DNA of 64,000 nucleotides, from assembly GCA_017305665.1 (NCBI GenBank), contig JAFKKH010000014.1, forward strand, positions 168,903 to 232,902, given 5' to 3'. This document shows, piece after piece, positions 49,999 through 64,000 of this stretch; within the stretch, counting starts at the first letter, position 1, and each line of letters opens with the position of its first letter. The stretch comes from Hyphomicrobiales bacterium. GTDB lineage: Bacteria; Pseudomonadota; Alphaproteobacteria; Rhizobiales; Xanthobacteraceae. The notes beneath the pieces are model-generated. The model saw nothing but the letters and a program-made list of their open reading frames with translations, was not told where the DNA came from and did no database searches. The translations under genes and the position numbers were made by a program.

Positions 49999-50025
49999 TC
50001 CGATCGGCGCGGCGGATGGGGACGT

Positions 50026-50913
50026 CTATTCGGCCGCGGCCTGGAACGAGCCGAGATCGTCGAGCGGGACAGTGGCCAACGCATCCGCAAGCGTTCTGAA
50101 GTCCGATGCCACCTGTCCAAAACGCGGACCGCGCTCGCGCCGCCGCTCATCCATGTAGACCGCGCGATTGAGCTCGATCTGGATGGTGTGCAGGCCGCTG
50201 GCCGGATTGCCGTAGTGCTCGGTGATGAAGCCGCCGGCATAGGGCTTGTTGCGCGCGAGGGAATAGCCGAGGTCACCCATCACCTTTTCGACGGCGTCAG
50301 GGAGCAGCGGCGCGCAGCTGGTGCCGTAGCGGTCGCCGATCACGATGTCCGGGCGGCGCGGCTCGTCGCGCGAGATGCCGATCGACGGCATGGAGTGGCA
50401 ATCCACCAGGATGACAGTCCCGAAGGTCTGATGTGCGGTGTGGATCAGACGACGCAACGCGCGATGATAGGGCTTGTAGAGCGTCTCGATCCGGCCGAGC
50501 GCGTCGTCGACGCTGAGACGCTCGCGATAGATCTCCTGACCGTCGCCGACCACGCGCGGGATGGTGCCGAGGCCGCCGGCGACCCGCATCGAGCGCGTAT
50601 TGGCGAAGCTCGGCAGCCGCCCCATGAACATTCGTGGATCGAGTTCGTAGGGCTCGCGATTCACGTCGACATAAGACCGGGGAAAATTGACCCGAACCAC
50701 TGGAAAACCCGCTCCGGCCAGATCACCGATCAATTCGTCCATGAACGAGTCTTCGGAGCGGCGCAGACCAGCCAGATCGATTCGCGAGGCCGCCAGGAAT
50801 TGCTCCGGATAGATCGAGCCGGAATGGGGGGAATTGAAGATGATCGGGGCCCGCCACGTCGCCGGCTCCACGATCTCGAACGGGGGCGACTGATCGCCGT
50901 CAAACTGGGTCAT
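50026..50913 (-). CDS. N-formylglutamate amidohydrolase family protein
   Basis: A 295-residue protein of the HutG-like/FGase family. IIFNSPHSGSIYPEQFLAAS RIDLAGLRRSEDSFMDELIG gives the early His and Asp of the metal site and VILVDCHSMPSIG the second DxHSxP metal motif, ending with GGFITEHYGNPASGLHTIQI ELNRAVYMDE. The reaction in the family is hydrolysis of N-formyl-glutamate or a related substrate. ATG 50913 gives the normal length. Together with cpdR next door the order is conserved in rhizobia. Confidence 0.88.
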   Translation of the reverse strand: MTQFDGDQSPPFEIVEPATWRAPIIFNSPHSGSIYPEQFLAASRIDLAGLRRSEDSFMDELIGDLAGAGFPVVRVNFPRSYVDVNREPYELDPRMFMGRLPSFANTRSMRVAGGLGTIPRVVGDGQEIYRERLSVDDALGRIETLYKPYHRALRRLIHTAHQTFGTVILVDCHSMPSIGISRDEPRRPDIVIGDRYGTSCAPLLPDAVEKVMGDLGYSLARNKPYAGGFITEHYGNPASGLHTIQIELNRAVYMDERRRERGPRFGQVASDFRTLADALATVPLDDLGSFQAAAE

Positions 50914-51087
50914 CGCCAGGCGTCGTCCCTGAAATTGGCTGCGGCCTGCCGAGCTCAGCCAGACGGGCCGCATTAAGAACTTGCATTGTCGATAATCGCG
51001 GCCATTCTGCCAAGCCAAACTTCGCCTTCACCCCAAATTTACCAGCTATCAGGCTTAGTAGGATGACTGATCCTCCAAGCCGGGCCT

Positions 51088-51459
51088 ATGACCTCCGCCA
51101 TGCACAAAATCCTCCTTGCCGAAGACGATAACGATATGCGCCGGTTTCTGGTCAAGGCGCTGGAAAATGCGGGTTTCAAGGTCTCGTCCTACGACAACGG
51201 CCTGTCAGCCTATCAGAGGCTGCGCGAGGAGCCGTTTGAAATGCTTCTGACCGACATCGTGATGCCGGAAATGGATGGGATCGAGCTGGCACGGCGGGCT
51301 TCGGAACTCGACCCCGACATCAAGATCATGTTCATCACCGGTTTCGCCGCTGTGGCGCTGAATTCCGATTCCGAGGCGCCCAAGAACGCCAAGGTGCTCG
51401 CCAAACCGGTGCACTTGCGGGAATTGGTCAGCGAAGTGAACAAGATGCTGGCGGCCTGA
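51088..51459 (+). CDS. cpdR: CpdR-type single-domain response regulator
   Basis: A 123-residue receiver domain that in Alphaproteobacteria controls ClpXP localisation and cell-cycle proteolysis, with CckA/ChpT phosphate flow. Sequence KILLAEDDNDMRRFLVKALE NAGF and the rest match CpdR closely. The phosphoacceptor Asp is in LLTDIVMPEMDGIEL (residue 56 here), with Thr in FITGFA and Lys in VLAKPVHLREL. An internal ATG (51100) is an equally likely start. No output domain. Confidence 0.93.
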   Translation: MTSAMHKILLAEDDNDMRRFLVKALENAGFKVSSYDNGLSAYQRLREEPFEMLLTDIVMPEMDGIELARRASELDPDIKIMFITGFAAVALNSDSEAPKNAKVLAKPVHLRELVSEVNKMLAA

Positions 51460-51532
51460 TTCGGGCCTCACTCGTCCTTGCCTGTCCGCACCAGAGCCGA
51501 TATAGGACGCGGCGACCCATTCGGATGTTTCC

Positions 51533-51607
51533 GGGCGCGTAGCTCAGCGGGAGAGCACTTCCTTGACATGGAAGGGGTCACAGGTTCGATCCCTGTCGCG
51601 CCCACCA
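51533..51607 (+). tRNA. tRNA-Val (GAC)
   Basis: Full cloverleaf: acceptor GGGCGCG / CGCGCCC with discriminator A and encoded CCA (51605-51607), D-arm GCTC-AGCGGGA-GAGC, anticodon stem CTTCC / GGAAG around TTGACAT with anticodon GAC at 51565-51567, and T-arm CACAGG-TTCGATC-CCTGT. 75 bases. Confidence 0.97.
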
Positions 51608-51655
51608 TCCGAGTTCACAGGCATCGACCGGATGCCGTATCTGCTCCGTAAATCT

Positions 51656-51680
51656 GGCCCGCAAATTGCGGGCCTTTTGT
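51656..51680 (+). terminator. terminator after tRNA-Val
   Basis: GGCCCGC-AAATT-GCGGGCC followed by TTTTG, about 50 bp past the tRNA gene. The rest of the 51608-51852 gap holds no gene. Confidence 0.88.
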
Positions 51681-51852
51681 ATTCCGGTGTCTCTGTTCCT
51701 GCCGCAGGCTGACAAATTCGCACCGAAGGCCGCTTGGGATATCCACGCGGCTCGCGTTCATACTTTAATTACGTCGAGGAATCCCAACGGCCCGGCATTC
51801 TGAGCTGCTTCAAACACGGCACGAACACTGCAGACAACCGGGCAGATCACTC

Positions 51853-52407
51853 TCAGGGTGATTTGGCGGGATTGTAACCTGACGGCGGTAGTTCGCTGTC
51901 CTTGTCCATCTGCGAGATGCGCGTTTCGAGATATTCGGCGGTTTTAATGAATGTCTCGATCTGTTGTCGTGAGAGCTCTCCGACAAGCCGTTCGTGACGG
52001 ATCAGGATGTCATCGAACATGCGATCATGAAGTTGCCTGCCGGCCTTGCTCAACGTCACCAGGGTGCGCCGGCGCGCGCTGTTGGGCACGTCGCGAATCC
52101 CGATCAATCCCCTGCCGTCGAGGCTTTTCAGGGCGCGGCTGACGGCCGCCTTGTCGAGGCTCCCCAAGGTCCAGATGTCGTAGGCGCTGGCGGGTCCGTT
52201 CGACGCGAGAAATGACAGGATGCGCCAGTCGAGCAGCGTGACGTCATACTGTTCCTGGAAGTACGCCTTTGCCGAAGCGCGAAGTTTCATGGAAAGGCGG
52301 GAAACGACTGTCGGGACGTAGCGCTGGAAGTCGATGGCCTGATCGGAAGCCGTCCGCTTCGTTGCGGATCGAACCGGTCCTTGCTGGAGCTCCATCCTCT
52401 TCGACAT
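51853..52407 (-). CDS. MarR family transcriptional regulator
   Basis: A 184-residue winged-helix regulator. LSMKLRASAKAYFQEQYDVT LLDWRILSFLASNG is the dimer helix and first DNA helix; TLGSLDKAAVSRALKSLDGR GLIGIRDVPNSARRRTLVTL is the recognition helix and wing. It is divergent from the ABC binding-protein gene. A perfect palindrome at 52569-52587 lies between the two starts and is its probable operator. The start could also be 52431 or 52395. Typical ligands are aromatic acids. Confidence 0.9.
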   Translation of the reverse strand: MSKRMELQQGPVRSATKRTASDQAIDFQRYVPTVVSRLSMKLRASAKAYFQEQYDVTLLDWRILSFLASNGPASAYDIWTLGSLDKAAVSRALKSLDGRGLIGIRDVPNSARRRTLVTLSKAGRQLHDRMFDDILIRHERLVGELSRQQIETFIKTAEYLETRISQMDKDSELPPSGYNPAKSP

Positions 52408-52568
52408 CGTCGCTCTGTTTCCGCTCGCCATTTTTTGCCGGGCCGAAAGGCTGATCCAAGTCCCGGGATTGTGCAACGGGGCCTTCGCGCGTTTTCCAAA
52501 AGCCGCGTCGCGCCGGTGCTGGATATGGCGCGGCCGGGGAATTGACAAGCGGACCGGCGAATGGTTTC

Positions 52569-52587
52569 ATTTACAATAGTTGTAAAT
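52569..52587. promoter_or_regulatory. probable MarR operator
   Basis: ATTTACAA-TAG-TTGTAAAT is a perfect 8-3-8 inverted repeat. It overlaps a -10-like TACAAT (52572-52577) for the rightward gene, and a half-site TTGTAA is repeated at 52595-52600. MarR dimers bind sites of this size. Confidence 0.75.
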
Positions 52588-52632
52588 ACCACCATTGTAA
52601 CGACAACCAATAATCGAATGGAGGAGGAGGCC

Positions 52633-53841
52633 ATGACCCACAGGATCTGTGCGCCGGTGCTGGCGACCATCATTGCTGCAACATGTTTCAACGTCGCGAT
52701 CGCCGCGCCGAAGTACGGTCCCGGGGCTTCCGATAAGGAGATCAAGATCGGGCAGACCACCGCATACAGCGGTGCTTTCTCGGCCTGGAGCGCCGCGGCA
52801 CAGGTGCAAGCGGCTTACTTCAAGATGCTGAATGAGAAAGGCGGTGTGAACGGGCGCAAGATCAACCTGATCTCGCTTGATGATTCCTACAGCCCGCCGA
52901 AAACGGTCGAGCAGACCCGCCGTTTGGTCGAGAGCGATGAGGTGCTCTTCCTTTTTGGTTCGCTTGGAGCGGCCTCGAATACGGCGGTCCACAAGTACCT
53001 TAACGTCAAGAAGATCCCGCAGTTGTTCCCTCAGTCGGGGGCGGCGAAGTGGTCTGATCCAAAGAAATTCCCATGGACCATGGGGTGGATGCCGTCCTTC
53101 GCAAATGAAGGGTTCATCTACGGCAAGTACGTCCTTGCCCACATTCCCGATGCCAAGATCGCCGTCTTCTTTCAGAATGACGATTATGGAAAGGACTACA
53201 TCGCCGGCTTCAAGAAAGCGCTCGGCGCCAACGCCGCGAAGATGATCGTGTCGGAGACGAACTACGAGTCCGCGGATCCGACCGTCGATTCCCAGATCGT
53301 CACCATGAAGGCATCAGGCGCCAACGTCTTGATGGATGCGAGTTCGCCGAAGTTCGCAGCGCAGGCGATCCGTAAAATGGGCGAGATCGGCTGGCGCCCA
53401 ACGCACTTCCTGGCGTCGCCCAGCGCGGTGATCGACCGTGTCTTCAAGGTCGCGGGGCTGGACTATTCCAAGGGGATCATTTCAGCGGCGTATTTGAAGG
53501 ACCCCGGCAATCCAGCCATGAAGGACGATAGTGGGGTGAAAGATTATCTGGCGTTTTTGGCCAAATACCTTCCGAACCTCGATCCGCAGAACCGCAACGC
53601 CGTTTGGGGTTATGCGTCGGCGGAAACGATCACTGCAGTGCTTAAGCAGTGTGGCGATGACCTGACGCGCGAGAACGTCATGCATCAGGCGGCCAATCTC
53701 AAGGATGTCAGCGTGACCATGCTGCTTCCGGGAATCCTGATGAACACCAGCTCGACCGATTACGAACCGATCGAAGACGAGCGTCTTCAGGTCTTCGACG
53801 GGTCGGATATGAAAACGATGAATGAAAAGGCCGAAAAATAG
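52633..53841 (+). CDS. branched-chain/aromatic-type ABC transporter substrate-binding protein
   Basis: A 402-residue periplasmic protein of the LivK family (cluster Peripla_BP_6). Signal peptide MTHRICAPVLATIIAATCFN with cleavage after AIA, then EIKIGQTTAYSGAFSAWSAA AQVQAAYFKMLNEKGGVNGR KINLISLDDSYSP, the classic Leu/Ile/Val-binding lead. Ligands of relatives include aromatic acids. GAGGAGGAGG lies right before the ATG. First gene of the oxygenase operon; its permeases and ATPases are not in the window. Confidence 0.92.
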   Translation: MTHRICAPVLATIIAATCFNVAIAAPKYGPGASDKEIKIGQTTAYSGAFSAWSAAAQVQAAYFKMLNEKGGVNGRKINLISLDDSYSPPKTVEQTRRLVESDEVLFLFGSLGAASNTAVHKYLNVKKIPQLFPQSGAAKWSDPKKFPWTMGWMPSFANEGFIYGKYVLAHIPDAKIAVFFQNDDYGKDYIAGFKKALGANAAKMIVSETNYESADPTVDSQIVTMKASGANVLMDASSPKFAAQAIRKMGEIGWRPTHFLASPSAVIDRVFKVAGLDYSKGIISAAYLKDPGNPAMKDDSGVKDYLAFLAKYLPNLDPQNRNAVWGYASAETITAVLKQCGDDLTRENVMHQAANLKDVSVTMLLPGILMNTSSTDYEPIEDERLQVFDGSDMKTMNEKAEK

Positions 53842-53887
53842 CCGATGGTCGGTTTTCCCGGGTGTATCAGACAATGAGAGAAATGTG

Positions 53888-55237
53888 ATGAGTGTCCACG
53901 CCTCTATCAATGACCTCGTCGATGATCGCCCGGGCGACCAGGCGTTCCACGTCGCGCGCAGGGCGTTCACGGATCCGGCGATTCTCGATCTGGAGCTGTC
54001 GCATATCTTCGAATCGACGTGGTCGTTTGTCGGGCTGACGACACAAATTCCGAAGCCGCACGATTACATCACGACGTTCATCGGACGGCAGCCGATTTTG
54101 CTGATGCGCGACGGACAGGGACATGTTGGCTGTTTTCTCAACACCTGCCGGCATCGCGCGACGATCGTCTGTCCGTTCAAGCGCGGCCGCCAGAAGTTTC
54201 ATGTCTGCCGGTACCACGGCTGGGCCTACGACAGCGCGGGTAAAAATACCATCGTGACGGAGATGGACGATGGTCAGTATCCGCCGTCATTCAAGGACGC
54301 CGATCGCAATCTGCTGCGCGTCGCTCGGTTCGAAAACTATCGCGGCCTTCTGTTCGCGAGTCTTTCGGCAGATGTGCCGCCCTTGAGTGACTACCTGGGA
54401 GATGCCAAGGCCTTCATCGATCTGGTTGCAGATCAGAGCCCGGTGGGCGAACTGGAATTCGTGCCCGGAGAGATCACCTACACGTTCGATGCAAACTGGA
54501 AGCTGCAGTTCGAGAATGGCCTCGACTACTATCATTTCAATTCGACGCACGCCTCTTATGTGGACATCCTGAACCAGCGAGCCAAGTCTGGAACGTCGGG
54601 CCCGCTGCCGCAGGAAGCACCTGACGAGATGGAAGGTCAGGGAAGCTTCAGTTTCGACCATGGTCATGCGGTGAACTGGTCCATCAAGCGACAGTCCCGC
54701 TACGGGCGCCCGCTGGTCATCGATCCTGCCTATCTCGCCGAGTTGAAAGCGCGCGTGGGAGAGACGCGCATCAAATGGATGCTTCGCCAGCGCAATCTGA
54801 CGATCTTCCCCAATCTGCAGATCATCGATATCAGTTCGGCTCAGCTTCGCACGTGGCGGCCGCTCGCCGTGGACAAGACCGAGATGACGTCCCATTGCCT
54901 CGCGCCGGTCGGCGAGAGCGCGGAGGCACGCCGTGTTCGGATCCGCAACTACGAGGATTTCTTCAATCCGAGCGGGCTCGCCACATCGGACGACAATGTC
55001 ATGTACGAATTCTGCCAGACCGGCTACGAGGCGCAGGCCGGCAATACGTTCGGACACCTGCGCGGTCTCGCCAACGGTCCGATATCCCCCAGCGGTCATG
55101 CGCAGGAGCTCGGAATATCGCCGGTGGAATCGGCGTTCGGCAAGCCTGCCTTCGGTGGCGAAACCAATTTCCATCCGGGATACCGGGAATGGCGGCGGCT
55201 GTTGCAGCGTCACGTGGATGGTGGCGCCGATGCTTGA
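53888..55237 (+). CDS. Rieske aromatic-ring-hydroxylating oxygenase large subunit
   Basis: A 449-residue alpha subunit. Rieske [2Fe-2S] ligands are Cys87 and His89 (TCRHRA) and Cys107 and His110 (VCRYHGW). The catalytic iron ligands are His216 and His221 in DYYHFNSTH with the electron-bridging Asp213. The Asp/His spacing and length resemble BenA/AntA/NagG-type oxygenases that act on benzoate, anthranilate or salicylate. The stop codon overlaps the start of the small-subunit gene. Substrate is not known. Confidence 0.93.
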   Translation: MSVHASINDLVDDRPGDQAFHVARRAFTDPAILDLELSHIFESTWSFVGLTTQIPKPHDYITTFIGRQPILLMRDGQGHVGCFLNTCRHRATIVCPFKRGRQKFHVCRYHGWAYDSAGKNTIVTEMDDGQYPPSFKDADRNLLRVARFENYRGLLFASLSADVPPLSDYLGDAKAFIDLVADQSPVGELEFVPGEITYTFDANWKLQFENGLDYYHFNSTHASYVDILNQRAKSGTSGPLPQEAPDEMEGQGSFSFDHGHAVNWSIKRQSRYGRPLVIDPAYLAELKARVGETRIKWMLRQRNLTIFPNLQIIDISSAQLRTWRPLAVDKTEMTSHCLAPVGESAEARRVRIRNYEDFFNPSGLATSDDNVMYEFCQTGYEAQAGNTFGHLRGLANGPISPSGHAQELGISPVESAFGKPAFGGETNFHPGYREWRRLLQRHVDGGADA

Positions 55238-55748
55238 GCGGATGTCGTCCGATTTGTCGCAGCGGAAACAGGCCGCTGAAGCAATCCTTTTCCTCGAGGC
55301 GCGCTATCTCGACGACAAGGAGTGGGATTCGTGGGCCGGGCTTTACGAACCTGACGCGGAGTATTGGGCGCCGTCCTGGCTCGATGAATACGACACGGCC
55401 GACGATCCCAACACGCAGGTGTCGTTCATCTATCACAACTCGCGATCTCAGTTGCAGGAGCGAATCTCACGCATTCAATCGCGCAAGTCGATTACGGCGT
55501 TGCCGCTGCCGCGAACGCTGCACGTGATTTCGAACATCACCGCATCGGAGGGAGAGAACGACTTGATCGTCGCCCGGTCCAACTGGACGACGCACGTGTT
55601 TGATCCGCGTGCCCAGAAGCAGCATCTCCATTTCGGGACCTATGAGCATGTCCTGAAACCGTCCGATGGTCAGTTGCGGATCGCGCGGAAGAAAATCGTC
55701 ATCATGAACGATCGCATTCCCAGCGTTCTCGATTTCTACAGCATCTAG
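55230..55748 (+). CDS. Rieske oxygenase small subunit
   Basis: A 172-residue beta subunit with the SnoaL-like cone fold: KQAAEAILFLEARYLDDKEW DSWAGLYEPDAEYWAPSW and the C-terminal FGTYEHVLKPSDGQLRIARK KIVIMNDRIPSVLDFYSI are typical of BenB/AntB/NagH-type subunits. ATG 55230 overlaps the end of the large-subunit gene by eight bases (translational coupling); an internal ATG at 55242 is possible. Pairs with the large subunit in an alpha3beta3 enzyme. Confidence 0.92.
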   Translation: MLERMSSDLSQRKQAAEAILFLEARYLDDKEWDSWAGLYEPDAEYWAPSWLDEYDTADDPNTQVSFIYHNSRSQLQERISRIQSRKSITALPLPRTLHVISNITASEGENDLIVARSNWTTHVFDPRAQKQHLHFGTYEHVLKPSDGQLRIARKKIVIMNDRIPSVLDFYSI

Positions 55749-55758
55749 GGATCGTCTC

Positions 55759-56091
55759 ATGGAGGAGCAGGCCGGGCGCTGGCACGCAGTGCTGAAGGAA
55801 AGTGAGGTGCCTGACGGCGATCCTGTTCCATGCAGCATCGACGATGTCGAAATCGCGATCTATCGGGTCGACGACGAGTATTTTGCGACGTCCAATATCT
55901 GCACGCATGCCCAGGCGTTATTATCGGACGGCTTTCTCGATGGACATCTGATCGAATGTCCGATTCATGGCGCATGCTTCGATATACGGACTGGGAAAGC
56001 CATGACGAGTCCGGCCGAGATCGACCTCGAGACGTTTCCAACGCGTGTTCGCGGCGGAAGCATTGAAGTATTGATACCGGCGAGGCCGTAG
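55759..56091 (+). CDS. Rieske-type ferredoxin
   Basis: A 110-residue [2Fe-2S] protein. Ligands are Cys48 and His50 (ICTHAQALL) and Cys67 and His70 (ECPIHGACF). It moves electrons from the FAD reductase (57486) to the oxygenase (BphF/NagAb type). It starts 10 bp after the small-subunit gene, in the same operon. Confidence 0.94.
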   Translation: MEEQAGRWHAVLKESEVPDGDPVPCSIDDVEIAIYRVDDEYFATSNICTHAQALLSDGFLDGHLIECPIHGACFDIRTGKAMTSPAEIDLETFPTRVRGGSIEVLIPARP

Positions 56092-56249
56092 CGCCGCGCG
56101 ACATTGCGCCGACGTCCGACAGCATGATCAAGTCTGGTGCACGACCCGCAATGAAATTGCGAAGTTGACTTTGAATCAGAATAGCTCAGGCGCAGAATAG
56201 TGAGGTAGGGTTAGCAGTCCTGCCGCGGCTGATGGAGTCTATCGAAGCC

Positions 56250-56591
56250 ATGCCTCATCTTGTGATCGAATATTCCGAGGGCGCCGTGAGCCGGGAGGAG
56301 GTGAGCCATCTGATGGAGCAGCTTGCCTCCGCCGCGGCACGGACCGGCGTCATGAAGGCGTCCGACATCAAGGTGCGGGCACGAAGCTATGACGATTTTC
56401 TGATCGCAGGCAAAAAGGACAGCTTCATTCATCTGTCGGTCTATTTGCTTGCAGGAAGAACACCGGAACAGAAGGTCGATCTCAGTGAACAGCTGCGGCA
56501 AGTGATGATTGAAAGCTGTGCGAACGTCGTCAGCCTGAGCGTTGACATCCGTGACATGGATCCTGTCGCTTACAAGAAGCGGCTGAAATGA
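56250..56591 (+). CDS. 5-carboxymethyl-2-hydroxymuconate isomerase-like tautomerase
   Basis: A 113-residue member of the tautomerase superfamily. MPHLVIEYSEGAVSREEVSH gives the Pro immediately after Met that becomes catalytic Pro1, and RARSYDDFLIAG and MIESCANVVSLSVDIRDMDP match the HpaF/CHMI branch, which isomerises ring-cleavage products. This suggests that a meta- or gentisate-type cleavage product occurs in the pathway, though no ring-cleavage gene is present here. A gap of 158 bp separates it from the ferredoxin gene. Confidence 0.85.
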   Translation: MPHLVIEYSEGAVSREEVSHLMEQLASAAARTGVMKASDIKVRARSYDDFLIAGKKDSFIHLSVYLLAGRTPEQKVDLSEQLRQVMIESCANVVSLSVDIRDMDPVAYKKRLK

Positions 56592-56653
56592 GCGGGCGAC
56601 CGTATTGCCTCGCCGGTTACGGCGTCGGAAAAACGGCGTCCACTATCCGGTGA

Positions 56654-57448
56654 TCAGACCAGCAGCGGCTGTGCCGCGTCGGATAGATCCTTCAGGAGAG
56701 GCAGAAAGCGGTCGATCATTTCGCCCGTGGTGATGCGGTCGACATGTGCGCCGATATTCGCGGCTGCGACAATCGTTCCGTCGTAGCGGCGCAGCGGCAC
56801 CGAGATCGAGCGGAATCCCTCTTCGGCTTCCCGATCGACCAGACTGTATCCCTTGGTGCGGTCGGTGATGATGGTGGCGATCAGTGTCGGCTTGTCGAGC
56901 AGCGTACTCGGGGTTTGCGCCGTCAGAGTCATATCGCTGATCGCTGCGGTCAGTTCCTCGTTGGAAAGCCGGCTGAGTAGCACCCGTCCGACCGAGGTGC
57001 AGAACGCGGGCAAGCGATAGCCGATATCCAGCCCCATCGAAAAGATGCGTGCGGGGCTGGAGCGGGCGACGAACACCACATCGACCGCGTCGAGGATCGC
57101 AACGGAACAGACTTCCCTGGCCTTCACCGAGACCTCGTCCATCAACGGCTGCAGCACGGTGCTGATCTGGTTTGAAGTCAGATAAGCGGAGGCTAGCAGC
57201 AGTACGCGCGGCGTCAGGGAAAACAGCCGCTCGTCTCCTGCAACGAAGCCGGACCGCTGCAGCGTCATCAGGATGCGGCGAACGGTGGCGCGCGGCAGGT
57301 TCGCTATCCTGGCGATGTCGCTCAGCGTCATCGGACGGCGATCGATGCCGAACGATTGAAGCACCCGAAGACCGCGATCGAGGCTTTCGATGAATTCCGC
57401 GCCGCCACGCGCGTTCTTCTCTTCCTCTGTGCGCTTCAGTTTCGGCAT
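56654..57448 (-). CDS. IclR family transcriptional regulator
   Basis: A 264-residue regulator. The N-terminal winged helix is MTLSDIARIANLPRATVRRI LMTLQRSGFV; the effector domain (90-255) has the FSMGLDIGYRLPAFCTSVGR VLLSRLSNEE and TKGYSLVDREAEEGFRSISV stretches that bind aromatic acids in PcaR/PobR/PcaU-type proteins. It is downstream of the reductase gene (37-bp gap) on the same strand. Palindromes at 58775 and 58909 are probable targets. Confidence 0.94.
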   Translation of the reverse strand: MPKLKRTEEEKNARGGAEFIESLDRGLRVLQSFGIDRRPMTLSDIARIANLPRATVRRILMTLQRSGFVAGDERLFSLTPRVLLLASAYLTSNQISTVLQPLMDEVSVKAREVCSVAILDAVDVVFVARSSPARIFSMGLDIGYRLPAFCTSVGRVLLSRLSNEELTAAISDMTLTAQTPSTLLDKPTLIATIITDRTKGYSLVDREAEEGFRSISVPLRRYDGTIVAAANIGAHVDRITTGEMIDRFLPLLKDLSDAAQPLLV

Positions 57449-57485
57449 CCGGGCCGTGCCTCCGCTGACTGTGCTCGACCGATCG

Positions 57486-58739
57486 TCATGAATTGCCGCG
57501 TGGGGTGCTGGCCTTGCCGATCGTCTTCACCAGTGACTTGAGATCGAAGGAAGGATCTGCGGCTTCTTCCGGTGTCGGCGAAACGCCGGCGGTAATGAGG
57601 CGGCGGCAAGCCAACTGGTCGCCCGGCCTGTTGATGCTGTCGGCCGCGATCAGGTTCTCGCCGCGGTACATGAAAACGGAGAACCTGCCCTCGTCCTCGG
57701 TACCGCGCACCACCATGCGATCGTGACGGGCCGATAACCCGACGATCTGCAGCTTCGCGTCATACTGGTCGGACCAGAACCAGGGGACAGTGTCATAGGG
57801 GCCGTGACGCCCAGCAATGGCGAACCCCGCGGCCTTGGCCTGATCCTGCGCGTTCTGCACGGACTCGAGCCTGATCCAGCCGTCAGCAAAGCGATTGTAG
57901 TGGTTGGCGCAATCGCCCGCGGCGTAGATGTCCGGATGTTCGGTGCGGCCGTACTCGTCGACCACCACGCCGTTGGTGCACTTCAGTCCGGCGGCGCGCG
58001 CCAGATCGTCATTGGCGATTCCCCCGATTCCGACCAGTACCAGATCGGCCGGCAGCTTTGTGCCGCTCGCGAGCGTGACCGCGGCGACGCGGCCGTTGTT
58101 GCCTTCCATCGCGACGACGCTTTCTCCCATCCGCACATCGACGCCGGCCTTGAGATGCGTGGTGTGGAGAAAGCCGGACACCAGCGGGCACACGGCGCGC
58201 TCGAGAAGGCGCATGACGCTTTCGACCACGGCGACCTTCTTGCCGAGCTTGGCCGCCGAGGAGGCAACTTCGAGTCCGATGAATCCGCCGCCGACGATCA
58301 CGACTTCCGAGGCTCGTGCGAGCCGTGCCTTGAGGTCGAGCGCATCCGCTACCGATCGCAGATAGCAGACGCCATCAAGATCGGCGCCAGGCACCGCGAT
58401 CCGGCGCGCGCGCGAGCCCGTGGCAAGCACGAGTTTGTCGAAGTCGAGCGTGGCGCCGTCGTCGAGCCTGATGCGTTTTGCTGCCGGATCGATCTCGGTG
58501 GCGCGATGTCCCAGAACCAGATCGATCCGCTCCTTCTTGAAGAAGGCCTCGTTGCGCAGGACGAGATGGTCTTCGGTGGTGACACCGAGCAGAAAGTCTT
58601 TTGAAAGAGGCGGCCGCTGATAGGGCAGCCAGGTCTCGTCGCAGACCACGGTAATATCATCGGCGTAACCAGCTTCACGCGCAGCGAGCGCACTCTGGAT
58701 GCCGGCGTACGACGCGCCGATAACAACAAGTCCGGTCAT
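57486..58739 (-). CDS. FAD-dependent ferredoxin reductase of Rieske oxygenase
   Basis: A 417-residue BphA4/NagAa-like flavoprotein. FAD site VVIGASYAGIQSALAAREAG near the start, NAD site VIVGGGFIGLEVASSAAKLG (about 148), then DIYAAGDCANHYNRFADGWI R and a C-terminal reductase domain. It passes electrons to the Rieske ferredoxin. The start lies only about 35 bp from a palindromic site. First gene of the reductase-iclR unit and divergent from the second Rieske oxygenase. Confidence 0.93.
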   Translation of the reverse strand: MTGLVVIGASYAGIQSALAAREAGYADDITVVCDETWLPYQRPPLSKDFLLGVTTEDHLVLRNEAFFKKERIDLVLGHRATEIDPAAKRIRLDDGATLDFDKLVLATGSRARRIAVPGADLDGVCYLRSVADALDLKARLARASEVVIVGGGFIGLEVASSAAKLGKKVAVVESVMRLLERAVCPLVSGFLHTTHLKAGVDVRMGESVVAMEGNNGRVAAVTLASGTKLPADLVLVGIGGIANDDLARAAGLKCTNGVVVDEYGRTEHPDIYAAGDCANHYNRFADGWIRLESVQNAQDQAKAAGFAIAGRHGPYDTVPWFWSDQYDAKLQIVGLSARHDRMVVRGTEDEGRFSVFMYRGENLIAADSINRPGDQLACRRLITAGVSPTPEEAADPSFDLKSLVKTIGKASTPRGNS

Positions 58740-58774
58740 GGCTGGCTCTTGAGAATAAATGTTGCCCGGTCAAA

Positions 58775-58792
58775 GAACATAAGTTCGATAGA
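58775..58792. promoter_or_regulatory. IclR-type operator, proximal to reductase
   Basis: GAACATAAGTTC followed by GATAGA. The first twelve bases are palindromic apart from one position, and the sequence GTTCGATAGA is repeated in inverted form at 58922-58931. It lies 36 bp from the reductase start. Confidence 0.5.
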
Positions 58793-58908
58793 TGGGCGCG
58801 ACAAGGAAAACGATTGGACTTGGAAAAGTTGGCTGCCCAAGTGCGGTTGCATTGCAGCATCGATGAGACTTGCATCGTCGCAACATTGGAGGCATTCTCA
58901 ATCCATGT

Positions 58909-58931
58909 GAACATATGTTCGTCTATCGAAC
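58909..58931. promoter_or_regulatory. IclR-type operator, proximal to second Rieske gene
   Basis: GAACATATGTTC is a perfect 12-base palindrome and continues into GTTCG-TCTAT-CGAAC, another inverted repeat. It lies about 110-130 bp before ATG 59041 and shares both elements with the site at 58775. Confidence 0.6.
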
Positions 58932-59040
58932 AAGGCGAGTCGCGGCGGCAGGATTGTATTTCAACGGCAGGTCCATACGCTTTCATCGCGGTGTCGGACC
59001 AGCGCATCCCGGAACGACAAAATAGAGGGGACTCAACGCC

Positions 59041-60399
59041 ATGATGAGTCAGGAGCAGAACGATCTCATCACCCGAATCGGTCCGTCGGCACCGGCCGGC
59101 AAGTTGATGCGCATGTACTGGCAACCTGCTGCGCTGGTGGATGAACTCGAGGGACCTCGCCCGATTCGACCGGTCAAACTGCTCGGGGAAAATTTCGTTC
59201 TCTTTCGGGACGAGGCGGGGCGCTACGGATTGATGGATCGCGACTGCCCGCATCGTGGTGCCGACCTTGCATTTGGCCGTCTGGAAAATGGCGGTCTGCG
59301 CTGCGCTTTCCATGGCTGGCTGTTCGATGTTACGGGCCAGTGTCTTGAGACGCCGGCCGAGCCGGCAGGTTCGTCACTTTGCAAGAATATCAAGCAACGC
59401 TCCTATCCCGTCGTCGAGAAGGGCGGCATCCTCTGGGCTTATCTTGGTGAAGGTGAACCGCCGGCGTTTCCGGAGATTGACTGTTTCGCAGCGCCGGATG
59501 CGTACACATTCGCTTTCAAGGGATTGATGGCGTGCAACTGGCTGCAGGCGCTGGAAGTCGGCATCGATCCGGCGCACGCCTCGTTCCTGCACCGCTTCTT
59601 CGAGGACGAGGACACCTCGTCGGCCTATGGCAAACAGTTCCGGGGAGCATCGGCAGACTCGGAGATGCCGATGACAAAGGTGCTGCGTGAGTACGATCGC
59701 CCCATTATCAACGTCGAGCACACCGAATACGGCCTCCGGCTGGTTGCGCTGCGCGAGATCGACGAGCAGCGTACTCATGTGCGGGTGACCAACCAGTTAT
59801 TTCCGCACGCCTTCGTCATTCCCATGAGCACGGAAATGACCATCACCCAGTGGCATGTGCCGGTCGATGATGAGTCGTGCTACTGGTACGCGATCTTCAC
59901 CAGCTACGCGAAGCCCGTCGACAAGAAGAAGATGCGCGACCAGCGCCTCGAACTTTATGAATTGCCGGACTACGTGTCACGGAAGAACAAGGCCAACGAT
60001 TACGGCTTCGATCCGCACGAGCAGGCCACTGCGACCTACACGGGCATGGGCGCCGATATCAACGTCCACGATCAGTGGGCGGTGGAATCGATGGGCGCGA
60101 TCCAGAACCGAACACGCGAGCATCTCGGACAGTCCGACAAGGCCATCATTCAGTATCGCCGTCTGTTGCGGCAGGAGATCGAGAAAGTCGCATCGGGCGG
60201 CAAGCCGCTGATGCATATCGAGCCCGCCACCGCACGCAGCATTCAGGGTCCCGCCACTATGGACGGCATCGGGCCGACCAGGGGCTGGGAGACCTACTGG
60301 ATGGAAGTCGATGTCAAGCGGCGGCGCGGCGCGCCTTGGGCTGCGCCGGTACCGGCTGAACTCGTCGAGAAACTGCCTCATCTGACCGCGGCGGAATAA
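59041..60399 (+). CDS. Rieske oxygenase, phthalate/vanillate type
   Basis: A 452-residue stand-alone Rieske protein. [2Fe-2S] ligands are Cys69, His71 (DCPHRG) and Cys88, His91 (CAFHGW); iron ligands are His179 and His184 in DPAHASFLH with bridging Asp176. It resembles the phthalate 4,5-dioxygenase / VanA / LigXa group (alpha-only trimers doing O- or N-demethylation or ring hydroxylation). No small-subunit gene follows. Instead the next gene, a glutamine-synthetase-family ligase, starts one base after its stop codon. Confidence 0.92.
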   Translation: MMSQEQNDLITRIGPSAPAGKLMRMYWQPAALVDELEGPRPIRPVKLLGENFVLFRDEAGRYGLMDRDCPHRGADLAFGRLENGGLRCAFHGWLFDVTGQCLETPAEPAGSSLCKNIKQRSYPVVEKGGILWAYLGEGEPPAFPEIDCFAAPDAYTFAFKGLMACNWLQALEVGIDPAHASFLHRFFEDEDTSSAYGKQFRGASADSEMPMTKVLREYDRPIINVEHTEYGLRLVALREIDEQRTHVRVTNQLFPHAFVIPMSTEMTITQWHVPVDDESCYWYAIFTSYAKPVDKKKMRDQRLELYELPDYVSRKNKANDYGFDPHEQATATYTGMGADINVHDQWAVESMGAIQNRTREHLGQSDKAIIQYRRLLRQEIEKVASGGKPLMHIEPATARSIQGPATMDGIGPTRGWETYWMEVDVKRRRGAPWAAPVPAELVEKLPHLTAAE

Positions 60400-60400
60400 C

Positions 60401-61876
60401 ATGCACGGGACCACTTCTTCAAAGGATCACGCGTCGAGTTTCGTCGGGAAGCACGGCCTATGGTCCGACGAGCAGCGCGATGCGGCCGAGCGGATGCGGC
60501 GTCTGGTCGAGGAGCAGAAGCTGCACAGCATCCGGCTGGCATTTCCGGATCAGCACGGCATCCTGCGCGGCAAGACGTTGATGGCGGACGAAGCGGTTGC
60601 CTCCATCGAAAGCGGTTGCTCGATCACGACCACGCTGCTCGCCAAGGATACCTCGCATCGCACCGTCTTCCCGGTGTTCTCTGCCGGCGGCGGATTTGGC
60701 ATGAGCGAGATGCAGGGCGGCGGCGACGTCCTGATGGTGGCCGATCCCACGACGTTCAAGGTGCTGCCTTGGGCGCAGGGAACCGGCTGGCTGCTGTGCG
60801 ATCTGTATTTCCCCGATGGCCGACCGGTGCCTTTCGCCTCGCGTGGGCTCTACCGCTCGGTGCTCGAGAAGCTCGCGGCGCGCGGCTATGACTTCAAGGC
60901 GGGCCTCGAAGTTGAATGTCATATCTTTCGGGTAGCCAACCCGCGGCTGGGACTGGCCGATTCCGGAACGCCCGGTCGCCCCGGCGAGCCGCCGGACGTC
61001 AGCCTGTTGTCGCAGGGCTATCAGTATCTCACCGAGCAGCGTTACGACCAGATGGAGCCGGCGCTGGAGGTGATCCGCGACAACATCGTCGCGCTTGGCC
61101 TGCCGCTACGCTCCATCGAAGTGGAGTACGGACCGAGCCAGTGCGAGTTCGTGTTTCAGCCCACGGTCGGCCTCGTGCCCGCCGACACCATGGTGTTGTT
61201 CCGCACCGCCGTGAAGCAGATTTGCACTCGCCACGGCTATCACGCCACCTTCATGTGCCGGCCTCGGATTCCGAACGTGATGTCGTCGGGTTGGCATCTC
61301 CATCAATCGCTGGCGGCGCGCGATAGCGGGCTGAACGCGTTTATGACCGGCGAGCCGGATGGCCTGTCGAAGCTCGGCAGGCATTATATGGCCGGCCTGC
61401 TTGCGCATGCACGGGCGTCGGCGGTGTTCTCCACGCCGACCATCAACGGCTACAAGCGCTATCGTTCCTATTCGCTGGCGCCGGACCGCGCCATCTGGGG
61501 CCGCGACAATCGCGGCGTCATGATCCGCGTACTTGGTGGTCCCGACGATCGCGCGACCCGTCTTGAAAACAGGATCGGCGAACCCGCGGCCAATCCTTAT
61601 CTCTACATGGCATCGCAGATTCTCGCAGGCCTCAACGGCATCGATCGTTCGCTCGATCCGGGCGCGTCGGCCGATACGCCTTATGAAACCAAGGCGAGCT
61701 TCCTGCCGACGTCGCTCCGCGAGGCGGTGCTGGCGCTGAAGGAAGATCCGTTCTTCCGCGATGCGCTGGGCGGGCAGTTCATCGATTACTACGTCCACAT
61801 CAAGAATGCCGAGATCGAGCGCTTCCAGGCGGAGGTCACCGAATGGGAGCAGCGCGAATATTTCGAGCTGTTCTGA
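60401..61876 (+). CDS. glutamine synthetase family ligase
   Basis: A 491-residue ATP-dependent ligase. Metal and substrate residues correspond to GS: Glu170 and Glu172 (GLEVECHIF), Glu240/Glu242/Glu249 (IEVEYGPSQCEF), His299 (SGWHLHQSL), Arg/Asn set in RNRGVMIRV-like DNRGVMIRVLGG and the end motif ENRIGEPAANPYLYMASQIL. It is longer and divergent from ordinary GlnA and belongs with gamma-glutamyl-amide ligases (AtdA1, PuuA, IpuC types). ATG follows the Rieske stop by a single base, so translation is coupled. Probably glutamylates an amine. Confidence 0.9.
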   Translation: MHGTTSSKDHASSFVGKHGLWSDEQRDAAERMRRLVEEQKLHSIRLAFPDQHGILRGKTLMADEAVASIESGCSITTTLLAKDTSHRTVFPVFSAGGGFGMSEMQGGGDVLMVADPTTFKVLPWAQGTGWLLCDLYFPDGRPVPFASRGLYRSVLEKLAARGYDFKAGLEVECHIFRVANPRLGLADSGTPGRPGEPPDVSLLSQGYQYLTEQRYDQMEPALEVIRDNIVALGLPLRSIEVEYGPSQCEFVFQPTVGLVPADTMVLFRTAVKQICTRHGYHATFMCRPRIPNVMSSGWHLHQSLAARDSGLNAFMTGEPDGLSKLGRHYMAGLLAHARASAVFSTPTINGYKRYRSYSLAPDRAIWGRDNRGVMIRVLGGPDDRATRLENRIGEPAANPYLYMASQILAGLNGIDRSLDPGASADTPYETKASFLPTSLREAVLALKEDPFFRDALGGQFIDYYVHIKNAEIERFQAEVTEWEQREYFELF

Positions 61877-61941
61877 TGCGCCGTCGCTGACAAGCGGACT
61901 AGAATTACGCAGCCGCGCCAGATCGCAGCTGCCGTCCCATC

Positions 61942-63372
61942 TCAAATCGTCAGGCCGATGAATTTCAACTGGGACAATTCTTCGATCGCATAACGCACGC
62001 CTTCGCGGCCGACACCGCTCTGCTTCACGCCGCCGAACGGATAGCCGTCGAGCCTGAAACGTGTCGCTTCGTTGACCCAGAGCGCGCCGACGTCGAAATC
62101 ATCCGCGAAGCGCATCATCGCGCCGAGATCGCGGGTAAAGACAGACCCCTGCAGGCCGAACGGCGAGTCATTGGCGAGCGCGAGCGCCTGATCAACCGTG
62201 TCGAACGGCGCCACGATCGCAATGGGACCGAACACCTCTTCCCGCCACAGCCGGGCGTTGTCGCTGACATCGACCAGGATGCCCGGGGACAGTCCGGCGT
62301 TGCCGGCGCGCCTGGGCTCCAGCGCATAGCGCGCGCCTTTGGCGATCGCTTCGCTGCACATCGCCGTCACGCGCTCCGCGGCGGCCTTCGAAATCATCGG
62401 GCCAACATCGGTCTTCGGATTGGTGGCATCGCCCACATTCAGCGTCTTGGCCGCGTCGACAAACGCTTGAAGAAATGCGTCGAGCCGCGATCGCGCGACC
62501 AGCACGCGCTGTGCGGAGATGCATTGCTGTCCGCTGGCTTCGAAAGCTGCGGACGCGATTTTTTTTGCAGCTGCCGCAATGTCAGCGTCGTCGAGCACGA
62601 CGTTGGCGGCGTTGGAGCCGAGTTCAGCAACAAACTTCTTGGCGCCGGCTGCCCGCGCCAGGGCGTCACCGCCGCTTGTGCTGCCGGTAAAGGACACCGC
62701 CCGCACGTCAGGATGGGCCGCGAGCGCGATGGCGGTCTCCTTGTCGCCGGTGACGACCGTGAACAAGTTTTCGGGCCAGCCAGCGTCCTGAAAGAGGCGG
62801 GCGAGCCTGATCGCCGTGCGGGTGCCGGCGGGAGCAGGCTTGACGACAATGGCATTGCCGGCGGCGATCGCTGGCGCGACCTTTTGCACGAGCAAGTTGA
62901 CCGGAGCATTGAACGGCGTGATGCCGGCAACGACGCCATAGGGAATATGACGGACGAATCCCATGTGTCCTGTGCCGGGTGGCGTGACATCCAGCGGCAG
63001 TGTCTCGCCACCGAGCTGTGACAACGCGGAAGCCGTGGCTTCGAGAAACTCGGCTCCGCGACGCACTTCGAAAGTCGCCATGCGGATAGGCTTGCCGACA
63101 TCGGCGCAGATAATCGCAGCGATCTCCTCGGACGCGCCGGTTAGTGCTGCGGCAGCCGCCTTGAGCCATCCGATCCTGATGTGTGTCGGTTGCTTCCGAT
63201 GTTGGGCAAAGGCTGCACCTGCCGCCCGCACGGCGAGCGCGACGCCCTCCTGTCCGGCCTCGGAAATTCGGCCGATCGTCTTGCCGTCGTGTGGCATCAC
63301 GAGATCGAATGCGGCGCGAGAACTCTCGTGCGTCTTTCCGTTGATGAAGCTGGCATAGATCGGCAGGTTCAT
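61942..63372 (-). CDS. NAD(P)-dependent aldehyde dehydrogenase
   Basis: A 476-residue ALDH. Catalytic Cys284 (GQQCISAQR), general base Glu250 (VAELGSNAAN) and the oxyanion Asn155 (TPFNAPVNL) are present, with the FTGSTSGG cofactor loop at about 229. Ends with FGGVKQSGVGREGVRYAI. Oxidises an aldehyde to a carboxylic acid; in this cluster perhaps the product of an N- or O-dealkylation or of ring-chain breakdown. Convergent with the GS-like gene. Confidence 0.95.
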   Translation of the reverse strand: MNLPIYASFINGKTHESSRAAFDLVMPHDGKTIGRISEAGQEGVALAVRAAGAAFAQHRKQPTHIRIGWLKAAAAALTGASEEIAAIICADVGKPIRMATFEVRRGAEFLEATASALSQLGGETLPLDVTPPGTGHMGFVRHIPYGVVAGITPFNAPVNLLVQKVAPAIAAGNAIVVKPAPAGTRTAIRLARLFQDAGWPENLFTVVTGDKETAIALAAHPDVRAVSFTGSTSGGDALARAAGAKKFVAELGSNAANVVLDDADIAAAAKKIASAAFEASGQQCISAQRVLVARSRLDAFLQAFVDAAKTLNVGDATNPKTDVGPMISKAAAERVTAMCSEAIAKGARYALEPRRAGNAGLSPGILVDVSDNARLWREEVFGPIAIVAPFDTVDQALALANDSPFGLQGSVFTRDLGAMMRFADDFDVGALWVNEATRFRLDGYPFGGVKQSGVGREGVRYAIEELSQLKFIGLTI

Positions 63373-63427
63373 GGTCTTGCTCTTCTGTGGTGTCGAGAAA
63401 GCGTCGGATCGGTGCGGCAGTTAAGCA

Positions 63428-64000
63428 TCACCGCGGGTGAGCGATGAAGTTGAGCATCGCTTGGCCGAGATGATCCTCAGACGTGTTGATGTGGCCGATG
63501 ATCGATGTGTGATTGTGGCCGGGCAGCCAGACCAGGGGCGGTGCGCGGCGTTTGGCCTGCGCAAGACGCGAAGCCAGTTCGAGACAATGCACGTCGATCA
63601 GCGGGTTTTCATACTCTGCAAAGGCGATGAACGTGGGGAGGCTGTCCGGACCGATGTGGCTGACAGGAGAGGCATCCGCCAGCGCATCCGCACTGTCCGT
63701 TCCGTAATAGGCCACAACTTTATGGGCGTTCGGGTTCTCCGGTCGCGTCTCGGCGCGGACCCGGCCGCTGACGACGAGATGCCCAGCAAGGCCAGGCCCA
63801 TCGGCAGGATGCCGTCGAGAATCGTAGACGTAGCTTCCGCTATGCGCGGCGCCGGCGGAATGACCCATCAAGAACAGGCGATCACGATCGATGCCGAATT
63901 CGGTCGCATGCTGTCGGGTCCATGCGACGGCACTCGCAATGTCTTCGGTCGCGCCGGGGTATCCGGCATCGCCGGCCAGCCGGTATCCGATGTTGATGCC
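63428..64000 (-). CDS. alpha/beta hydrolase, 5' end outside window
   Basis: The last 190 residues of an alpha/beta hydrolase; the frame is open at 64000. GATEDIASAVAWTRQHATEF precedes the nucleophile motif LFLMGHSAGAAHS (Ser in G-H-S-A-G), and Asp and His follow in FAEYENPLIDVHCLELASRL and LPGHNHTSIIGHI. The pattern resembles the carboxylesterase/kynurenine-formamidase (AFMID) branch, which hydrolyses esters or formamides. It lies 55 bp before the ALDH gene on the same strand and is probably in one operon with it. Confidence 0.85.
   Translation of the reverse strand, partial: GINIGYRLAGDAGYPGATEDIASAVAWTRQHATEFGIDRDRLFLMGHSAGAAHSGSYVYDSRRHPADGPGLAGHLVVSGRVRAETRPENPNAHKVVAYYGTDSADALADASPVSHIGPDSLPTFIAFAEYENPLIDVHCLELASRLAQAKRRAPPLVWLPGHNHTSIIGHINTSEDHLGQAMLNFIAHPR

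Follow-up and report, generated by a model that had tools for sequence, protein, structure and literature searches.

The right end of a 64,000-base stretch of DNA from a Hyphomicrobiales bacterium (contig JAFKKH010000014.1; hereafter the window is this whole stretch) carries two Rieske oxygenases, a glutamine synthetase (GS)-like ligase, and their neighbors. We conclude, with a probability of roughly 0.6, that these genes form a mosaic of two catabolic modules within a variable region bordered by a tRNA-Val gene. Module A would center on a cad-type aryl-ether oxygenase, and module B would encode a sad-type route for an aminobenzene acid, the likeliest being 4-aminobenzoate. Gene sets of both kinds are already known; new here are the mosaic, the apparent loss of a ferredoxin, a conserved lysine and arginine, and the 4-aminobenzoate hypothesis.

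Two modules joined beside a tRNA gene

The modules are joined beside tRNA-Val in the window and are separate loci in the closest relative, genome G112, which keeps module A on one contig (locus L187 on C107) and module B on another (L034 on C71). By blastn, window positions 51838-56057 match C107 with 89.8% identity over 4222 aligned columns, and positions 56248-61876 match C71 with 76 to 83% identity, with one small piece and a gap between. Because homology to C107 ends at 56057 and homology to C71 starts at 56248, the join falls within 56058-56247. Positions 50001-64000 contain no Ns. The right end of the window is the end of its contig (232,902 bases), window position 64000 being the last readable base, and the source genome comprises 5.03 Mb in 47 contigs.

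On the left, similarity to same-genus genomes stops at 51607-51610, the 3' end of tRNA-Val, in all six genomes fetched (eight had a match). Among same-genus genomes, 0 of 6 have the ligase (E ≤ 1e-60) and 0 of 6 have the module A alpha subunit at the threshold used. The G+C content of module A is 57 to 58%, versus 61 to 65% in the genes to its left. The first 3 kb to the right of the tRNA in genus-mate G083 had no match in the source genome, in a search run without a positive control, and the rest of the window showed no repeat of the tRNA end. Since such a repeat is lacking and the DNA 3' of tRNA-Val is rearranged among same-genus genomes, an empty site could not be demonstrated, nor could a second border. 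From 51607 onward, the DNA looks like a tRNA-bordered island; no second border was seen, with integrases sought in the open reading frame list only. Separately, the variation among genus-mates on the 3' side of tRNA-Val(gac) marks a possible insertion hot spot.

The initial annotation had read this region as one gene set that included a full four-part Rieske oxygenase (53888-56091 plus the reductase at 57486). All of the genes that it claimed are present with their domains (MarR, Peripla_BP_6, Rieske, Ring_hydroxyl_B, CHMI, IclR, reductase, Gln-synt_C, Aldedh, and hydrolase), but the left and right halves of the set are the two separate loci of G112. The reductase belongs to module B, not to module A, because it is kept beside the second oxygenase and the ligase rather than beside 53888-56091. 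This case cautions against taking two adjacent oxygenases for one pathway.

Module A contains a CadA-type oxygenase

The alpha subunit of module A is 97% identical to its counterpart in G112, 79% to that in G095, 68% and 64% to the two copies of Bradyrhizobium RD5-C2, and 65% to CadA of Sphingomonas ERG5. Together with ERG5 CadA and both RD5-C2 CadA proteins, it falls in an eight-row clade with support of 100/99. The RD5-C2 copies were assigned to cad1 and cad2 by G+C content (56% and 63%) and gene order, both in agreement with PMC8446748. There, both RD5-C2 cad clusters, when expressed, are reported to have degraded 2,4-dichlorophenoxyacetate (2,4-D) and 2,4,5-trichlorophenoxyacetate (2,4,5-T). 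According to PMC3877037, ERG5 CadA is 99% identical to CadA of Sphingomonas 58-1, and mutants show a need for CadA in 2,4-D loss. Because the alpha subunit groups with CadA of 2,4-D degraders, the module A oxygenase likely cleaves an aryl ether or carries out a related reaction. This places 53888-56091 with the cad (phenoxyacetate) type, outside the amine route to which both oxygenases had been assigned. As described in PMC3877037, the first cad system came without an identified reductase, which leaves room for the module B reductase to serve module A here.

No permease or ATPase gene was among the genes identified beside the module A solute-binding protein. Elsewhere in the source genome (L192; contig C6, 49000-68900), there is a second set of a binding protein, a Rieske alpha subunit, and a Rieske ferredoxin, 34 to 45% identical to module A; the window is thus not alone in pairing a binding protein with a Rieske oxygenase.

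Module B is a conserved oxygenase-ligase pair

To follow module B, we searched 149 genomes from the family to which the window belongs for ligase relatives (E ≤ 1e-60) and fetched 20 regions in each of two rounds from the better matches. Ligases of the wider branch occur in 67 of these genomes, a count that includes ligases of 45 to 51% identity without Lys82 (see below) where checked. A scan of a named collection gave at least 595 matching stretches, at least 580 of which encode a relative; the best 80 loci were used, some strains appearing twice, and 63 of them have at least 6 kb on each side (full flanks). A second set held 39 loci, 33 with a ligase of ≥55% identity and 31 of these with full flanks; its genomes partly overlap those of the named set. 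Genes were counted at fixed identity and coverage thresholds, at which diverged copies may be missed.

The ligase starts 1 base past the stop codon of the oxygenase. A phthalate-family oxygenase lies beside the ligase in 76 of the best 80 named loci, the four exceptions having short flanks; the two genes occur together in 63/63 full-flank named loci, and the oxygenase is present in 29 of the 31 full-flank loci of the second set. Other companions of the pair in the 63 full-flank named loci are a 2Fe-2S ferredoxin (10 loci), an amidohydrolase (14), a further binding protein (23), and a LivH-type permease (23). The window's CadA-type alpha, MarR, aldehyde dehydrogenase, and hydrolase were found in none of the 63 at the thresholds used; the module A alpha subunit is likewise absent from all 31 loci of the second set, and two named loci have a binding protein resembling the one in module A. 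The aldehyde dehydrogenase and the hydrolase are thus flanking genes, outside the conserved module. Assignment of the hydrolase as a chloramphenicol hydrolase was not adopted (model match of 41.8 bits against a cut-off of 500). The start of the CHMI gene is better set at 56250 (ATG CCT, Met-Pro), as homology to relatives begins at 56248-56250. In G112, genes for a binding protein, an Amidohydro_3 protein, and a Liv-type transporter come after the pair (L074, 7462-13655); these genes are missing in the window.

The ligase and its tunnel

The best solved relative of the ligase by sequence is NpaA1 (8wwu; E value of 3.4e-136). Identity is 51% to a DcaQ-type protein of pNB8c and 44% to NpaA1. In a tree of 31 rows, the ligase groups with that of G112 (100/98), then with those of B. 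tropiciagri and SA1 (four rows, 100/99), and then within 12 alphaproteobacterial rows (100/99), while GlnA and PuuA sit far off on very long branches and deviate in composition. A branch separates the 22 sad-like rows from NpaA1 and DcaQ only; we make no clade claim for them, because seven ungrouped rows, including GlnA and PuuA, are left uncounted. Judged by its sequence, the ligase is of the glutamyl-organic-amide synthetase (GoaS) type represented by NpaA1, AtdA1, and DcaQ, outside GlnA and PuuA; membership was assessed against NpaA1 and DcaQ, with AtdA1 represented through its likeness to NpaA1 (90% identity; PMC11335346). The earlier suggestion that the ligase is no ordinary GlnA therefore holds in the tree. 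Because the ligase is near NpaA1 and lies 1 base after a phthalate-family oxygenase, an amine route with a gamma-glutamyl step is the best reading for this pair; extended to the whole cluster as one route, that claim does not stand.

Two active-site features agree with the GoaS type. The region of the GS catalytic Asp50' (DGSS) is lost, the window having GFGMSE versus FDGSS in GlnA of the same genome. The amine-pocket glutamates E232 and E234 of NpaA1 are both Glu in 22/22 sad-like rows, the window included. In NpaA1, the amine tunnel is lined by the loop V68'-M81' and has its bottleneck at F75', F86', and W235 (PMC11335346). The window ligase has Lys82, Phe, and Tyr at the positions of F75, F86, and W235, and Thr replaces M81; it does not carry the three aromatic tunnel residues. 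That trio is reported in PMC11335346 for NpaA1 and AtdA1 and is therefore a mark of the aniline and naphthylamine enzymes, not of the whole family. Lys82 is present in 122/122 aligned rows of ≥55% (rounded) identity, the window included; by unrounded identity, it is found in 120 rows besides the window, representing 116 distinct sequences. At the same position, the eight rows below 55% have Leu (four), Phe (three), or Met (one). Genomes of the window's family also hold a further group of ligases (L069 to L073), 44 to 48% identical, with Leu or Phe at this position and no phthalate-family oxygenase; these are probably ligases for other amines.

The oxygenase and its arginine

Arg248 of the module B oxygenase aligns with R244 of phthalate dioxygenase (PDO) and R234 of isophthalate dioxygenase (IPDO), which bind the substrate carboxylate (PMC12445078); residue numbers were counted from the alignment, with a 23-residue offset assumed for 9ina. 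Arg248 is kept in 113/113 rows (112 besides the window, 107 of them distinct). PDO R207 and IPDO H257 are not kept in the alignment of the window oxygenase. A substrate whose ring bears a negative charge would suit both Lys82 and Arg248; neither residue proves it.

A lost ferredoxin and a candidate operator

The G112 locus has a 2Fe-2S ferredoxin gene (L034, 3746-4090) that sits between the reductase and oxygenase genes and overlaps the reductase start. By eye, the part of the promoter with the inverted repeats is kept in the window despite the skipped stretch (L034, 3763-4229). The best matches to the G112-type ferredoxin in the source genome are 47% and 43% identical, with no copy at the locus. 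The gene is present in G112 (L074) and in 10 other named loci. Judged from this alignment, module B of the window has lost its own ferredoxin.

Upstream of the oxygenase, the window has a perfect copy of the inverted repeat TGTTCG-N5-CGAACA. We scanned 400 bases upstream of the oxygenase in 75 loci, including the window, allowing at most one mismatch and spacers of 0 to 7. The spacer was 5 in 29 of the 31 printed matches, and there were no matches inside the ligase gene (0/75) or in letter-shuffled upstream sequence (0/75). As an IclR gene adjoins in nearly all loci, the repeat is a likely candidate for an IclR operator.

Which acid does module B use?

PMC5632844 describes the sad operon of Hydrogenophaga intermedia PBC, which comprises sadA (4-aminobenzenesulfonate 3,4-dioxygenase), sadB (GS), sadC (ferredoxin), and sadD. 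According to it, every Hydrogenophaga genome reported up to that time has the operon in fairly conserved form, also beyond polluted sites, and the original substrate is likely natural, its identity being left open. The same source calls Novosphingobium resinovorum SA1 a well-studied 4-aminobenzenesulfonate degrader. Our sad likeness rests on the published layout, and the SA1 copy on plasmid pSA3 served as the sequence proxy for SadA and SadB (85% and 78% identity to the window oxygenase and ligase); its reductase, IclR, and CHMI proteins are 63%, 47%, and 46% identical to those of the window. Genes for an adenylosuccinate-lyase-family protein, 4-sulfomuconolactone hydrolase, maleylacetate reductase, an oxidoreductase, and PcaHG lie 40 kb from the pair on pSA3, in the order given in PMC5632844 for the SA1 4-sulfocatechol genes. 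A folP gene (dihydropteroate synthase) also lies ∼8 kb from the pair on pSA3 (L154, 1367-2197). Sulfanilate and 4-aminobenzoate resemble folP ligands, and this folP might guard folate synthesis.

Reduction of nitrobenzoate gives 4-hydroxylaminobenzoate, which a lyase converts to protocatechuate; 4-aminobenzoate is the over-reduced neighbor of 4-hydroxylaminobenzoate. Among 72,556 plasmid records, 467 had any ligase match, 50 of which were listed. Of these listed matches, ten records have a ligase of ≥55% identity, and the oxygenase adjoins it in all ten. PnbB, of the 4-hydroxylaminobenzoate lyase family (PF16155; E ≤ 1e-15), occurs in just 23 of the 72,556 records; it is found in 7 of the 10 pair-bearing records among the matches listed, 6 times at 2 to 12 kb from the pair, and in none of the other 40 listed GS-like records. 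Fisher p values are 1.2e-6 for the seven and 1.3e-5 for the six, the records not being independent. A nitroreductase match lies nearby in five of the six close cases, with none at threshold in Caballeronia NK8. The order oxygenase-ligase-ferredoxin-reductase is found on six betaproteobacterial plasmids (Caballeronia, two; Paraburkholderia; Cupriavidus, two; and Polaromonas). A route from 4-aminobenzoate to protocatechuate would fit this PnbB linkage. In the source genome, contig C7 bears a pcaHG-like pair and contig C44 a further match to the intradiol family; a LigB-type match was not found. PnbB was also tried as a general marker in the window's family and set aside, since the association appears only in the plasmid set and none of the family cases was shown to be adjacent.

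Among the papers surfaced, by title and abstract, none assigns a GS/Rieske pair to 4-aminobenzoate, a result that says nothing beyond them. PMC6460240, a genome study, reports growth on 4-aminobenzoate with no genes found for its breakdown. Genes for aerobic 4-aminobenzoate breakdown are thus not settled in the papers examined, and the PnbB-family linkage together with the invariant Lys82 and Arg248 makes the substrate class directly testable.

Proposed mechanism and what weighs against it

The sequence itself shows which genes are present, where the modules end, to which families the ligase and the oxygenases belong, which residues are conserved, and that the ferredoxin is lost. On substrates, glutamylation activity, shared electron transfer, and operator function, we infer the following. 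In an ATP-dependent step, the ligase would attach glutamate to the amino nitrogen of an anionic aromatic amine, likeliest 4-aminobenzoate or the analogous 4-aminobenzenesulfonate. Carbons 3 and 4 would then be oxidized by the adjacent Rieske oxygenase, and the amide nitrogen would leave, yielding protocatechuate (or 4-sulfocatechol), whose ring the pcaHG-like pair of the source genome could open. IclR would control the divergent promoter through TGTTCG-N5-CGAACA sites. Module A would act as a cad-type aryl-ether oxygenase (alpha, beta, and Rieske ferredoxin) with its own MarR regulator and binding protein. Module B appears here with no ferredoxin of its own and no transporter block behind it, and its reductase, now near the module A ferredoxin, may feed both oxygenases.

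A bolder version, which we offer tentatively and at less than even odds, is that the pair is a widespread route for 4-aminobenzoate, a folate precursor, in Bradyrhizobium, Afipia, Rhodopseudomonas, Burkholderiaceae, and others. The ligase, with a tunnel made positive by Lys82, would form N-(gamma-glutamyl)-4-aminobenzoate, which would be oxidized to protocatechuate, and the sulfanilate sad operon would be a recruited copy. In the window, the cad module would supply the missing ferredoxin, so that one reductase would serve two unrelated oxygenases.

Several observations weigh against the proposed mechanism. Five of the six close PnbB cases are from Burkholderiaceae; the seventh PnbB, that of Polaromonas (42%), is 24.6 kb from the pair, in an apparently different ring-cleavage cluster. 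Within the window's family, only 6 of 149 genomes have PnbB, and the source genome is not one of them. The ligase is present in four of the six: in two it lies on the same chromosome but megabases from PnbB, and in two on other contigs of draft genomes. The link to 4-aminobenzoate therefore rests on other genera. Arg248 could instead bind the glutamyl carboxylate. The ligase can stand apart from a phthalate-family oxygenase, as in full-flank loci L054 and L056, where a ligase of 66 to 67% identity with Lys82 has none. Reductase, ferredoxin, CHMI, and transporter genes each occur alongside the pair in far fewer than half of the loci, and the CHMI protein is unexplained by the proposed route. 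The ferredoxin is also missing beside the reductase in 5 of the 16 named loci that have a reductase; either loss happened more than once or the partner sits elsewhere, and loss in the window is not special and by itself no argument for sharing. Finally, the repeat is found in only 26 of the 75 loci, 49 having no match at the stringency used.

Alternative readings

The alternative that survives best, though we judge it unlikely, is that the natural substrate of module B is another anionic or polar aromatic amine (an aminophenylacetate, an aminophenol, or a plant or folate breakdown product), with 4-aminobenzoate and sulfanilate as side substrates. CHMI-type tautomerases are known from homoprotocatechuate breakdown, and one lies near the pair in 18 of the 63 full-flank named loci; the binding protein, permease, and amidohydrolase that accompany other pairs name no substrate. 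The PnbB linkage in six plasmid records and the context on the SA1 plasmid speak for 4-aminobenzoate and sulfanilate instead.

It is improbable that both oxygenases, the ligase, the aldehyde dehydrogenase, and the hydrolase act in sequence on one aromatic amine. The genes are physically adjacent in this one genome, but the two modules are separate loci in G112, each module has its own regulator, the module A alpha subunit is a CadA relative, and this subunit, the aldehyde dehydrogenase, and the hydrolase are absent from all 63 full-flank named loci of the pair.

We give very little weight to the ligase being an aliphatic-amine or polyamine ligase of the PuuA type or a plain glutamine synthetase. 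Generic GS-family models match it, all below curated cut-offs; it is 26% identical to PuuA, its nearest solved protein is NpaA1 and its tree position lies outside PuuA and GlnA, a ring oxygenase adjoins it in every full-flank named locus, and the source genome has a separate, higher-scoring GlnA-type gene.

Least probable of all is that module A is an auxin (iad) locus, an idea that came from its Rieske alpha and beta genes with MarR, a MarR match to 7kfo (the Variovorax iad regulator), and IadD (9o71) among the alpha matches, and that was dropped as neither protein is the best relative in solved-structure matches or the tree: eight other MarR chains outrank 7kfo, whose match is weak (5.1e-5); 9o71 comes twelfth, after enzymes that include phenylpropionate, biphenyl, and naphthalene oxygenases, although 7yls, in eleventh place, may be identical to it; the alpha subunit is 64 to 68% identical to CadA; and the neighbors were not recognized as iad genes, no dedicated iad gene search being made.

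Features of the region

Table 1. Features of the tRNA-Val border and of modules A and B, in window coordinates
Feature	Position	Strand	Basis and conservation
tRNA-Val (gac)	51533..51607	+	ARAGORN; edge of variable region
Region content	51853-64000	both strands	Twelve genes bearing expected domains
MarR regulator, start uncertain	51853..52467	-	Pfam MarR_2 4.1e-9; 89% identical copy, same divergent placement in G112
Solute-binding protein, Peripla_BP_6	52561..53841	+	Pfam; 92% in G112, same place
CadA-type Rieske oxygenase alpha (predicted)	53888..55237, frame open from 53822	+	Pfam; CadA clade 100/99
CadB-type beta (predicted), start uncertain	55230..55748	+	Ring_hydroxyl_B 9.3e-39; 57% to RD5-C2 copy taken as cad2
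CadC-type Rieske ferredoxin (predicted)	55759..56091	+	Rieske 7.9e-22; 54% to RD5-C2 copy taken as cad2
Junction of modules A and B	56092..56249		G112 C107 homology ends at 56057, C71 homology begins at 56248
CHMI-type tautomerase	56250..56591	+	PF02962 9.8e-15; beside pair in 18/63 full-flank named loci
IclR regulator	56654..57448	-	Pfam; 61/63 full-flank named loci
Ferredoxin reductase, Pyr_redox_2/Reductase_C	57486..58739	-	Same divergent position in G112; 15/63 full-flank named loci
Site of relatives' 2Fe-2S ferredoxin gene	58756..58881		126 bases here versus 467 in G112 (blastn gap, L034 3763-4229)
Inverted repeat TGTTCG-N5-CGAACA, candidate IclR operator	58916..58932		Perfect copy
SadA-type Rieske + LigXa_C oxygenase alpha (predicted)	59041..60399	+	Phthalate family; 85% to pSA3 copy; Arg248
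SadB-type GS-like ligase, Gln-synt_C (predicted)	60401..61876	+	NpaA1 best solved relative; tree; Lys82
Aldehyde dehydrogenase, flanking	61942..63372	-	Aldedh 4.3e-142; 0/63 full-flank named loci at threshold
Alpha/beta hydrolase (BD-FAE / Abhydrolase_3), cut by contig end, flanking	63428..64000	-	Abhydrolase_3 1.4e-12; 0/63 full-flank named loci at threshold

Comparison with known systems

Module A resembles the CadABC clusters of Bradyrhizobium RD5-C2 and HW13 and Sphingomonas ERG5, and its order alpha, beta, Rieske ferredoxin is that of cad2. It differs from those clusters in having MarR and a solute-binding protein in place of CadR and CadK, and no tfd genes were recognized beside it.

Among solved oxygenases, PDO and IPDO of Comamonas testosteroni KF1 (7fjl/7v25 and 9ina) are among the closest to the module B oxygenase by sequence, and the carboxylate-binding Arg is common to both; unlike them, the window oxygenase is partnered with a ligase. 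The ligase belongs to the same wider branch as those of the npa (NpaA1 of JS3066), tdn-dca (DcaQ-type, pNB8c), and atd systems, in which glutamylation precedes Rieske oxygenation. The npa, dca, and atd systems have a two-subunit oxygenase and a GATase gene beside the ligase, whereas the window oxygenase is alpha only, so that the layout of the aniline type (GS-GATase-alpha-beta-reductase) is not seen here, as the initial annotation had noted. The npa and dca ligases carry tunnel Phe75 and Trp235, where the window has Lys and Tyr.

That annotation had also taken the pairing for undescribed and named a gene set already described for a known substrate as what would overturn it. The sad operon published in PMC5632844 already combines a GS gene with genes for a Rieske 3,4-dioxygenase and a ferredoxin, so for module B this is largely the case. 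The sad operon and the window share an alpha-only Rieske oxygenase directly upstream of a GS-like ligase, plus an electron-transfer gene. The SA1 cluster differs from the window in its interspersed insertion sequences, its ferredoxin and glutaminase genes, and the position of CHMI after the ligase. Compared with sad, the window is without the ferredoxin (sadC) and has a divergent reductase, an IclR gene, a CHMI gene, and an attached cad-type module.

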